Assembly (NCBI GenBank): GCA_022823185.1
Contig: JAJDXQ010000013.1
Span: 124,001-188,000, forward strand
Source: Caldilineaceae bacterium
Lineage (GTDB): Bacteria; Chloroflexota; Anaerolineae; Caldilineales; Caldilineaceae
Reading direction: 5' to 3'
DNA: 64,000 bases
The first letter of the stretch is position 1. Each line of letters opens with the position of its first letter. The translations under genes and the position numbers were made by a program. A model generated the notes under the pieces. The model made no database searches and was not told where the DNA came from. It was given only the letters and a program-made list of their open reading frames with translations. This document shows positions 10,790 through 13,102 of the stretch, piece after piece.

Positions 10790-10917
10790 GGCCGGCGGTC
10801 CTTTCCTTGCGGTACATCGGGGTATTGCGGCGGTCCTGGCAGGTGGGGGGAACCCGGGACGATTATGGGGGGAATTGTAACTGATTCCTGACGGCTGCGC
10901 AACCGAAAACAGGTGTA

Positions 10918-10950
10918 CGCCCTCGCGAAGTTGCGAGGGCGTTTTGTTTT
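10918..10950 (+). terminator. Rho-independent terminator-like hairpin (plus strand) at island edge
   Basis: CGCCCTCGC (10918-10926), loop GAAGTT, GCGAGGGCG (10933-10941), then TTTTGTTTT. The 9-bp perfect stem plus T-tract is a textbook intrinsic terminator on the plus strand, yet no plus-strand gene lies immediately upstream. Its T-tract directly abuts the left inverted repeat of the island. Confidence 0.8.
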
Positions 10951-10985
10951 GGGGATTATATACATTCGTTACATTGGAGAGGGAA
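10951..10985 (+). repeat. left terminal inverted repeat of the island
   Basis: Begins GGGGATTATAT and ends ACATTGGAGAGGGAA. It matches the reverse complement of 13031-13065 at 31 of 35 positions, the differences lying at repeat positions 12, 14, 17 and 20. On the minus strand it contains TATAAT (10960-10955) pointing outward, towards the desaturase gene. Confidence 0.75.
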
Positions 10986-10996
10986 GAATGCAACTC

Positions 10997-11025
10997 AAAA
11001 ATAGTTGGCCCCCTTTATTTGGGGC
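10997..11025 (-). terminator. terminator of the island's leftward unit
   Basis: On the minus strand GCCCC (11025-11021), loop, GGGGC (11012-11008), then a short spacer and T5 (11001-10997). It follows the stop codon of the 37-aa peptide gene by 9 nt and lies just inside the left inverted repeat. Confidence 0.55.
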
Positions 11026-11034
11026 AGTGCGAGG

Positions 11035-11148
11035 CTAACCGAAAAGAAAATCAAGAAGCAGGTGGCCAGGTGCCACTGCATAGACAACGAGTGCGAAGGC
11101 AAACAGCCAGCAGAAAGCGAAGATTGCGATGACCTTTATCGTTGCCAT
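11035..11148 (-). CDS. 37-residue hydrophobic membrane peptide
   Basis: Small protein starting MATIKVIAIFAFCWLFAF, almost wholly hydrophobic, predicted to span the membrane once. The start is supported by a strong AGGAG 8 nt upstream of ATG 11148; the frame stays open upstream to GTG 11241, which would add a second hydrophobic segment (68 residues total) but has no ribosome site. No family recognised. Such peptides occur in phages (holin-like or membrane stress) and as toxins of small TA systems, but nothing here decides between these. It lies downstream of the HNH gene in the same direction, in the AT-rich island. Confidence 0.5.
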   Translation of the reverse strand: MATIKVIAIFAFCWLFAFALVVYAVAPGHLLLDFLFG

Positions 11149-11315
11149 GTCCTTATCTCCTCTGCCGAAGGCAAAGAAGAATGGTGTCACGAGGCAGACA
11201 AGCGCAAGGATAAAGAGTAGTGAATCGACTGAAAGAAGCACGGCATGTTGTGTGGTGTTGTGGGGTGAGTGTTTTTTTGGGTTCTGTACGGACTATCAAT
11301 CCAGAACTCAAAACA

Positions 11316-12002
11316 TCAGAGCCGACCCCAGGTCGGATTTAGTCTTAGGATTTCCTCTCTCGCTCTTCTTTCCCTTTCCTGTAGGTCGATGCCGCCATCT
11401 GTTTCACGGATAAACCACCACAGGCTAGACCCGCGCACCGGCTGATAGCAGACCTCACAGAGCAAAGGTTCTCCTGCTGGGATGACGAAATTGCACTCGT
11501 GTACTGGCTCAGGGGCAAAACTGGTCTGCGTTTGCAGCGGTTCAAGCCAAACGTGAGGCGCGCACTCCCGGACTTGCCTATTCATCTTTTCAAAACCAAG
11601 TTTTGGCAGAAAGAAACTTTCTGTTTTGGCCTTTTTGTCATCGGCATTATCTTGTGGGGTACCGACATAAAGGTGAGAAGGTTGGACGCAACTACGCCGA
11701 TTGCACATGTGCAGAATGGATGTGTTTGGGGGAATCGATCCCCTGCTTAACCTATAGGTGACTCTGTGCGCCAGATGCAGGCGGCCGCCGTGTGTGAGAA
11801 TCCCGTAGCCACCGGCATTGAGTCCGTGCCGCCAGATCAGGCAGGGGCCATATATGGGCGCACTATTGTTTATTGGAGGCGTGTATACAGCTGCATAGCT
11901 GCTGGGGTGAATGGTGAGGCCTTGGTTGCCAGGTCTTCGTGAGGGTGCTGTTCTTGTGAGCCACAGCAGGAAGTCGCGTTCCTGGCGGTGTCGGTTTGGC
12001 AT
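11316..12002 (-). CDS. HNH endonuclease, phage/homing type
   Basis: Contains the C-rich HNH_3 signature typical of phage and intron-borne nucleases: a CLIWRHGLNAGGYG entry strand, HLAHRVTYRL with the metal/catalytic His, then HMCNRRSCVQPSHLYVGT and DNADD (the CxxxxCxxPxHL...GT..(D/E)N pattern). Residues after about 130 are unlike known HNH proteins and include a second Cys-containing stretch (LLCEVCYQP), perhaps a small target-recognition domain. ATG 12002 is the first start close to the conserved part; ATG 12035 is also possible; neither has a good ribosome site. 228 residues. Probable nicking or double-strand nuclease serving element mobility. Confidence 0.8.
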   Translation of the reverse strand: MPNRHRQERDFLLWLTRTAPSRRPGNQGLTIHPSSYAAVYTPPINNSAPIYGPCLIWRHGLNAGGYGILTHGGRLHLAHRVTYRLSRGSIPPNTSILHMCNRRSCVQPSHLYVGTPQDNADDKKAKTESFFLPKLGFEKMNRQVRECAPHVWLEPLQTQTSFAPEPVHECNFVIPAGEPLLCEVCYQPVRGSSLWWFIRETDGGIDLQERERRAREEILRLNPTWGRL

Positions 12003-12122
12003 ATTTATGGTGTATTGAACAATCGTGATGCCCATCCACAGGCTTGGTGAATTGCTCTATTATATACCTTTGCTTGTGGTCCAATTTTTGGGACCAAGCT
12101 CAGTACCCATTTGCGAAAACGA

Positions 12123-12151
12123 TTGACAATCGGATTTTGGTATGCTAGAGT
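12123..12151 (+). promoter_or_regulatory. sigma70-like promoter, possibly giving a leaderless mRNA
   Basis: Perfect TTGACA (12123-12128), a 17-bp spacer and TAGAGT (12146-12151). The expected start of transcription falls about 7 nt downstream, at or next to ATG 12158, so the heptad-repeat gene would have little or no 5' leader; no Shine-Dalgarno sequence is present. Confidence 0.6.
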
Positions 12152-12157
12152 GGGCCT

Positions 12158-12460
12158 ATGCTTAGAGTCGCCATTGCCGTTTTCTTTATATCTTTGTTTG
12201 GCGCGCCGGTCCACGCGCAATCAATCGCGGAAAATAGTGAGAGGGTTGCGCGCCTTGAAAGCGCATACGAGTATCTAGCCACCAAGGCTGATGTCGAATC
12301 AGTGCGTACCGAAGTTGAGTCAGTGCGTACCGAAGTTGAATCAGTACGTACCGAAATAGCTAATTTGCGGGGCGAAGTGAATGGCATAAAGTGGACTATG
12401 GGGGGCGGATTCCTCATCCTTGTCGGCATCACTCTGTGGACACATAGAAAACCCCAATAA
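12158..12460 (+). CDS. signal-peptide, heptad-repeat coiled-coil protein with C-terminal membrane anchor
   Basis: 100 residues. A signal peptide (VAIAVFFISLFGAPVHAQ, about 4-21), a coiled coil with near-perfect heptads of ESVRTEV (about 45-70), then a hydrophobic helix WTMGGGFLILVGITLW and a short HRKPQ tail. The DNA behind the heptads is a 21-bp tandem repeat. The coiled coil plus C-terminal helix resembles DUF1640/Bdr-like phage-associated proteins, a resemblance of architecture only. It opens the rightward unit of the island and is followed by a terminator, so its neighbour is probably expressed separately or by readthrough. Confidence 0.7.
   Translation: MLRVAIAVFFISLFGAPVHAQSIAENSERVARLESAYEYLATKADVESVRTEVESVRTEVESVRTEIANLRGEVNGIKWTMGGGFLILVGITLWTHRKPQ
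12293..12357 (+). repeat. 21-bp tandem repeat, three copies, coding heptads
   Basis: Three consecutive 21-bp units reading (G)TCAGTGCGTACCGAAGTTGA with few differences, each encoding one ESVRTE(V/I) heptad. The near-identity at DNA level suggests recent slippage expansion of the coiled coil. Confidence 0.75.
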
Positions 12461-12513
12461 ACCCAAAACACCACTACTTAACTCGCGACACGATTCGACA
12501 TAAGTTCCACTTC

Positions 12514-12541
12514 GCCACCCCATGGGGTGGCACTTTTTTTT
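12514..12541 (+). terminator. intrinsic terminator inside the island
   Basis: Perfect 18-bp palindrome GCCACCCCATGGGGTGGC (12514-12531) followed by AC and T8. It lies 53 bp after the heptad-repeat gene and 45 bp before the GIY-YIG-like gene. Confidence 0.85.
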
Positions 12542-12586
12542 GAGGACTTACATCGGATTTTACCCCAACCCCACAAGGAGAACATC

Positions 12587-12946
12587 ATGCCAAGAGGATT
12601 CAGTAAGGGCAGAGGATCCAGGAGAGGACGGTCATCCACTGGTGGCAATCGTTCAAATCGACGAAGAGGCCAAGTCAGAAACGGTAAATCCGTTCAGTAT
12701 TCCATTAAGGGAGCCAATGGAAAAACCAAGTACATCGGCGCCACCAATAATCCCACTCGCCGGGCGGCTCAACACAAAAAAACAGGTAAACTGGGGACTG
12801 AAGACCGTTTGGTAGTGGAAACACGTCCCACGTCCCGCTCTAAAGCTGAGGGCGTGGAAAGAGCAAAGTTGAAGACATTCCGTCAGAACAGTGGACGGAA
12901 TCCGCAGCACAACAGAACGAATGACGGCAAGTACCACCCTCGCTAA
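12587..12946 (+). CDS. small GIY-YIG-like protein with basic N-terminus
   Basis: 119 residues. A Gly/Arg/Ser-rich tail of about 35 residues (PRGFSKGRGSRRGR) precedes a GIY-YIG-like core: VQYSIKG...KYIGATNNPTRRAAQH, matching the Y-x(n)-YIG-T-nnp-xR-xxxH pattern with the first GIY degenerate (QYSI). The invariant downstream Glu may be the E of KAEGVERAK. Start ATG 12587 has AAGGAG at ideal spacing; the upstream frame is not needed. Predicted DNA nicking or binding protein, possibly the partner of the HNH nuclease in the same island. Activity is uncertain because the first motif is degraded. Confidence 0.65.
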   Translation: MPRGFSKGRGSRRGRSSTGGNRSNRRRGQVRNGKSVQYSIKGANGKTKYIGATNNPTRRAAQHKKTGKLGTEDRLVVETRPTSRSKAEGVERAKLKTFRQNSGRNPQHNRTNDGKYHPR

Positions 12947-13030
12947 TCAATGTGTGCCTTTCTTGCTCATAGGGGCAAAGGTAATAAGACGGCCTGATTC
13001 CCTTGTTTTGAATTCCGCTCGTTTTTCTCT

Positions 13031-13065
13031 TTCCCTCTCCAATGTGACTAAAGCATATAATCCCC
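13031..13065 (-). repeat. right terminal inverted repeat of the island
   Basis: Reverse-complement partner of 10951-10985 (31/35). Reads TTCCCTCTCCAATGT ... ATATAATCCCC on the plus strand. It contains TATAAT (13056-13061) pointing outward. A nested stem-loop downstream of clpB begins 5 bp outside it. Confidence 0.75.
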
Positions 13066-13069
13066 TTCG

Positions 13070-13102
13070 TTTCGCGGAACGCACGACAGAGCGTTGGCGA
13101 AA
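13070..13102 (-). terminator. stem-loop downstream of clpB
   Basis: TTTCGC/GCGAAA outer stem and AACGC/GCGTT inner stem, with small bulges. It lies 26 bp after the clpB stop codon. No T-tract follows on the minus strand, so it may be a Rho-assisted or mRNA-stabilising end. It sits directly outside the island's right repeat. Confidence 0.45.

Follow-up and report, generated by a model that had tools for sequence, protein, structure and literature searches.

A transposase-free 2.1-kb unit with IS1595-type ends carries two nuclease genes in a Caldilineaceae bacterium

What kind of element is the small repeat-bounded island that separates two housekeeping genes, clpB and one for a fatty-acid desaturase, in the genome of a Caldilineaceae bacterium, and how did it come to be there? 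The island occupies positions 10951–13065 (exactly 2115 bp) of the window, the 64,000-nucleotide stretch of DNA that was analysed. A first-pass annotation, made from the sequence alone, had described a mobile unit of an unrecognised kind, bounded by 35-bp inverted repeats, AT-richer than its surroundings and without a recognisable transposase. The analysis presented here points, with a probability of about 90%, to a non-autonomous cassette resembling a mobile insertion cassette (MIC), derived from an IS1595-family transporter element and moved in trans, the genes of which would be passengers. Features of the locus are collected in Table 1.

Table 1. Features of the repeat-bounded unit and its borders (positions in the window)
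Feature	Position	Strand	Observation
Left 8-bp target duplication copy, TTTGTTTT	10943–10950		In the T-tract of the flanking terminator; equals the right copy in G009
Left terminal inverted repeat (TIR)	10951–10985	+	31/35 to right TIR; family core common to IS1595 elements
68-aa hydrophobic membrane peptide, presumed cargo	11035–11241	-	From ORF list; no significant family match
HNH endonuclease gene, presumed cargo	11316–12002	-	PF13392, 4.6e-8, above cut-off; PHROG HNH families to 3e-20
IS3-family left end, relic, 84 bp	12019–12102	-	Up to about 90% identical to many genus copies
Putative sigma-70-like promoter for coiled-coil gene	12123–12151	+	TTGACA-17-TAGAGT, extended TG; consensus match only
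100-aa coiled-coil protein, presumed cargo	12158–12460	+	DUF2730, 5e-6; N-terminal signal/membrane and C-terminal membrane segments
Terminator-like hairpin with T-tract	12514–12531	+	
GIY-YIG nuclease-like protein, 119 aa, presumed cargo	12587–12946	+	PF01541, 3.2e-5, above cut-off
Right TIR	13031–13065	-	Matches at 28–29/30 the ends of two further G013 units with target duplications
Right 8-bp target duplication copy, TTCGTTTC	13066–13073		Two substitutions; TTTGTTTT in G009

The two TIRs differ at four of 35 positions. When the 5-kb region was shuffled 20 times (first order), the best inverted pair of 35-mers reached 22–25 matches, far below the 31 observed, and no further copy of the repeat was detected in the 5.17-Mb genome with up to three mismatches allowed. 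G+C content is 0.50 within the unit and 0.65 in its flanks. No transposase or convincing transposase remnant was detected in the unit, both subterminal regions included, the best relaxed match having an E-value of 0.18 over 10 amino acids. The boundaries, the base composition and the missing transposase were thus as first described. The unit gave no Rfam match, and an RNA element was rejected on that ground. Phage origin was also rejected: in the phage collection the flanks matched through clpB only, relatives of the HNH protein were distant (27–37%) and the GIY-YIG protein had none.

The desaturase–clpB junction was found without the unit in four genomes of the same genus (G010, G001, G015 and G013), and a search for such an empty site, suggested by the first-pass annotation, thereby succeeded. 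When the G010 junction was aligned to the window, from which the island and one duplication copy had been removed by script, G010 proved to be an exact empty site with one 8-bp target, present as the single copy CTTATTTT. The junction in G010 reads GGGCGT-CTTATTTT-GCGGAACGC, and the corresponding sequence in the window reads GGGCGT-TTTGTTTT-island-TTCGTTTC-GCGGAACGC. The right side of the insertion in G009 reads CCCC-TTTGTTTT-GCGG and is identical at all eight positions to the left copy in the window, the own two copies of which agree at six of eight positions. With the left copy in the window identical to the right copy in G009, and a single copy in G010, the target duplication that had also been suggested as a check can be read as 8 bp of TTTGTTTT made on insertion; by this comparison, the right copy in the window has changed at two positions since. 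The simplest history is that the unit inserted once, in an ancestor that the window genome shares with G009. The target itself is the T-tract of a flanking terminator at 10917–10942, which had been overlooked. Terminator targeting as a general rule was rejected, a strong hairpin being present beside the target in 2 of 18 elements (11%) as against 5–8% of 300 T-rich controls.

The duplication bears directly on the earlier proposal of a self-mobilising or homing element. In a homing mechanism, the HNH or the GIY-YIG nuclease would cut the empty allele and repair would copy the unit in. Two nuclease domains are indeed present and the HNH protein is related to phage homing-type HNH proteins, but a homing event would neither duplicate its target nor require inverted termini, and here both an 8-bp duplication and transposon-family ends are found. 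Neither an intron location nor a free-standing position at a homologous site in relatives was seen, relatives of the HNH gene occurring in unrelated contexts, and no Rfam intron family reached its gathering score in the window. In addition, the HNH gene is gone in G009 while the remainder of the unit persists there. Homing is therefore strongly disfavoured by the target duplication and the context, and is regarded as very improbable.

The cargo genes were largely as first read. The nuclease genes are carried on opposite strands (HNH on the minus strand and GIY-YIG on the plus strand), and the hydrophobic peptide and the heptad protein were both recovered, the latter as a predicted coiled coil whose gene contains three 21-nt repeats and which has relatives in the same genome (63% over 59 amino acids) and elsewhere. 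Of two proposed terminators, the plus-strand hairpin downstream of the coiled-coil gene was confirmed; the other, near 11008–11025, reads on the minus strand. The HNH open reading frame is open from 12035, but translation probably begins natively near 12002, with MPNRHRQ, like that of its L017 relative. The closest relative of the HNH protein (60% amino acid identity) is encoded in L017, a contig labelled Halieaceae, and others (42–48%) were found in G003 and G012. None of these placed relatives lies within a detectable unit of this kind, and for this reason the nucleases look like cargo; no result indicates that they bring about the movement. A short HNH fragment in G012:C160 lies close to a motif that resembles a degenerate end. 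The GIY-YIG gene was confined to this insertion, in the window genome and G009, when 46 genomes of the family were searched.

When 17 genomes of the genus were searched at the DNA level, the repeats proved to belong to a genus-wide family of termini. The terminus core GGGG[A/C]TTATAT[A/G]C…AGT was present in 16 of the 17, often as inverted pairs, with ∼70 matches genus-wide compared with a handful for the reversed control, and close copies of the right end of the window unit were observed in other genomes of the genus. Such a repeat search had been proposed at the outset. Elements of this family span 1.2–9.5 kb. The 18 elements tabulated comprise the window unit, 16 others with paired termini and perfect 8-bp duplications, and G013_5083, which was left uncounted because a tandem copy starting 3 bp after it confounds its duplication. 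Perfect duplications include AAAGAGAA, TTTCTAAT, CAAATTAT, TTTGCTTA and AATTCTTT, and the target duplications have a mean A+T content of 81%, a value that includes G013_5083 and, for the window, TTTGTTTT. An intact IS1595 transposase is encoded by 12 of the 16 clean elements. A fragment remains in G013_184991, and none was found in G013_4457730, G009_C39 and G014_C11, all four being bounded by duplications. The transposases of complete members combine PF12762 and PF12760 (DDE_Tnp_IS1595 and a zinc ribbon) and are called IS1595 by the NCBIfam model NF033547 with E-values of 1e-51 to 1e-59. Eight-bp duplications, a DDE_Tnp_IS1595 domain and a zinc finger are traits of the IS1595 family (PMC8101967).

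Several further arrangements of these termini were noted. L150:3672-8662 (G013:C1) holds a direct tandem of two IS1595 elements, each 2494 bp long, which are 3 bp apart and have identical ends and identical transposases. Termini doubled head to tail (GGGG..TATATAC..TTTAGT twice) occur in L095:991-1030, L104:1064-1105 and L059:333-409, and look as if a transposase site had been repeated. A 6.3-kb transposase-less unit with a perfect duplication, L097:1041-7325 (G014:C11), encodes a 1498-aa leucine-rich-repeat-like protein.

The end sequence of the window unit itself (28–29/30) is shared by two units in G013, both with perfect duplications: one of 3548 bp, flanked by TTTTCTTT, has no transposase, and one of 3219 bp, flanked by CAAAAAAA, retains an IS1595 transposase fragment. 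The idea that the ends belong to an IS982 transposase found in one G013 unit was rejected, since that transposase is nested in a unit that also has an IS1595 fragment and complete units carry IS1595. Among elements with an intact transposase, the best end matches are 23/30, in G002:C164 and G011:C3. The window genome encodes two intact IS1595 transposases and a broken one; the ends of the elements that carry the intact genes match those of the window unit at only 14 and 16 of 30 positions, so that no cognate source is now visible in the same genome.

In terms of classification, the unit shares with the IS1595 family TIRs that start with GG and match the family elements of the genus, together with the 8-bp target duplication. 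It encodes no transposase with DDE_Tnp_IS1595 and the usual zinc ribbon. With neither a transposase gene nor a fragment of one present, the family is assigned from the ends, the duplication and the relatives, and this assignment is firm. Besides the missing transposase, three points weigh against the cassette reading: no cognate source is visible in the same genome, the two duplication copies in the window differ at 2 of 8 positions, and the two ends differ at 4 of 35. Since the defining transposase gene was sought and not found, the unit is filed as a derivative and not as an IS1595 insertion sequence. As expected of a MIC, it is a discrete insertion with a target duplication, in which IS-type inverted ends surround passenger genes and no transposase. 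The first-pass reading of a mobile unit with repeats at its borders was right, but its kind is a recognisable one after all, the ends and the 8-bp duplication being those of IS1595-family elements of the same genus, which carry a DDE transposase.

The interior of the unit has been rearranged. An IS3-family relic, not noticed in the first-pass annotation, abuts the 5′ side of the HNH gene. An intact copy of this element in the genus encodes a transposase (NF033516, 4e-75), and in the relic the start codon of its own orfA is altered. The 84-bp repeat was also considered as an att site or an intron piece, which was rejected on its identity as an IS3-family end. As the HNH gene begins right behind the relic, the latter may supply its promoter and thus drive its expression. 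L017, which encodes the closest HNH relative, also carries an IS3 end 84% identical to that in the window; the presence of both in a contig labelled Halieaceae may reflect horizontal transfer or a binning error. The insertion in G009 (L006 / G009:C17:102093-103213) lacks the sequence corresponding to 10912–12106, which includes the left TIR, the membrane peptide, the HNH gene and the site that the IS3 relic occupies in the window. In G009 the sequence breaks off 4 bp from where the IS3 end lies in the window, and that position holds no copy of IS3 in G009.

This rearrangement raises a variant within the same family, namely that the unit is a degraded autonomous IS1595 transporter element whose own transposase was lost later, by an IS3-linked deletion. 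The relic in mid-unit is consistent with such a course, as is the position of the transposase gene just inside one end in several complete relatives, where later deletions could reach it. Neither subterminal region, however, retains any transposase trace, and the four other duplication-bounded units without an intact transposase indicate that this state is not peculiar to the window. Later loss is therefore viewed as a credible but less probable course than a cassette already moved in trans.

For the preferred cassette, the following minimal sequence of events can be proposed. A DDE transposase of the IS1595 type, provided in trans, would bind both inverted ends and cut out or copy the unit, which would then be inserted at the AT-rich 8-bp target TTTGTTTT in the terminator T-tract between the desaturase gene and clpB, with duplication of the target. 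The passengers would be the genes for the two nuclease-like proteins, the coiled-coil protein and the small membrane peptide. Later, an IS3-family element would have inserted and decayed, leaving its 84-bp end beside the HNH gene and, in G009, a deletion would have taken the left half with its end. The discrete insertion, its ends, the duplication, the termini common to transposase-bearing IS1595 elements and the lack of a transposase inside were observed; the movement in trans, the source of the transposase and the function of the cargo are what we infer from these comparisons.

The unit can be compared with known systems. As cited in PMC3129680, transporter insertion sequences (tIS) of the IS1595 family were reportedly described by Siguier et al. 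(2009), and mobile insertion cassettes such as MIC231 of the IS231/IS4 family by De Palmenaer et al. (2004). Like the tIS, the window unit has ends starting with GG, an AT-rich 8-bp duplication, passengers and the terminus core of the genus; unlike them, it lacks a transposase, is only 2.1 kb long and carries two different nuclease domains. With MIC231 it has in common IS-type inverted ends, passenger genes, a target duplication and the lack of a transposase, but its ends are of the IS1595 and not the IS4 type, and its movement in trans is deduced. Within the genus, one end matches at 28/30 the transposase-less, TTTTCTTT-flanked G013:C1:4457730-4461277 (L042:5731-9278). The coiled-coil membrane protein of that unit bears a weak similarity to the one described here (46% over 24 amino acids), and the unit differs in its length of 3.5 kb, its other small membrane-protein cargo and its lack of HNH and GIY-YIG genes. 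The IS1595 element of G002:C164 (L151:3025-5771), with an end at 23/30 and the perfect duplication CTTTTTTT, differs in carrying its own transposase. Both the transporter IS and the mobile insertion cassette are established concepts (PMC3129680), and no open-access title or abstract was found that describes an IS1595 unit carrying an HNH or a GIY-YIG gene. The present unit is ordinary in mechanism and somewhat unusual in cargo.

Nuclease or restriction–modification genes are carried by several of the 16 duplication-bounded family elements. The IS1595-family element G011_C45 (L091:1069-5619) encodes a fusion of an N6/N4 methylase with an HNH domain. G011_C3 (L092:1022-3781), with a perfect 8-bp duplication, combines a methylase gene with that of a type II restriction-like enzyme (PADLOC) and is apparently a mobile restriction-modification unit. 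G011_C36 (L093:1034-10497), 9.5 kb in length with a perfect duplication, contains about a dozen cargo ORFs, among them a staphylococcal-type nuclease; one of its proteins is nearly identical to one in L041 (1023-2384). The recurrence of nuclease, methylase and restriction genes could be taken to mean that nucleases aid the movement or maintenance of such units, for example through restoration of the donor copy once the unit has been excised. The gene families in the cargo vary between units, however, and complete units have no gene in common but that of the transposase, with no shared nuclease seen, which makes such a role improbable.

A broader idea, which we consider speculative and on balance unlikely, is that an IS1595 lineage has turned, in this genus, into a general vehicle for genes of nucleases, methylases and restriction enzymes, with cassettes lacking a transposase, such as the present one, as its satellites, and that the HNH and GIY-YIG genes are a new two-nuclease cargo directed against phages or rival elements. 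If this is true, mobile defence-like genes would be moved and re-assorted through cross-recognised ends. With the present analysis, an unexplained repeat-bounded island becomes an insertion placed on the genus tree and made by known chemistry. IS1595 units form a large family in this genus, with members that vary in size, some of them transposase-less, and that carry nuclease and restriction-modification genes; cross-mobilisation and the choice of cargo within it become directly testable.
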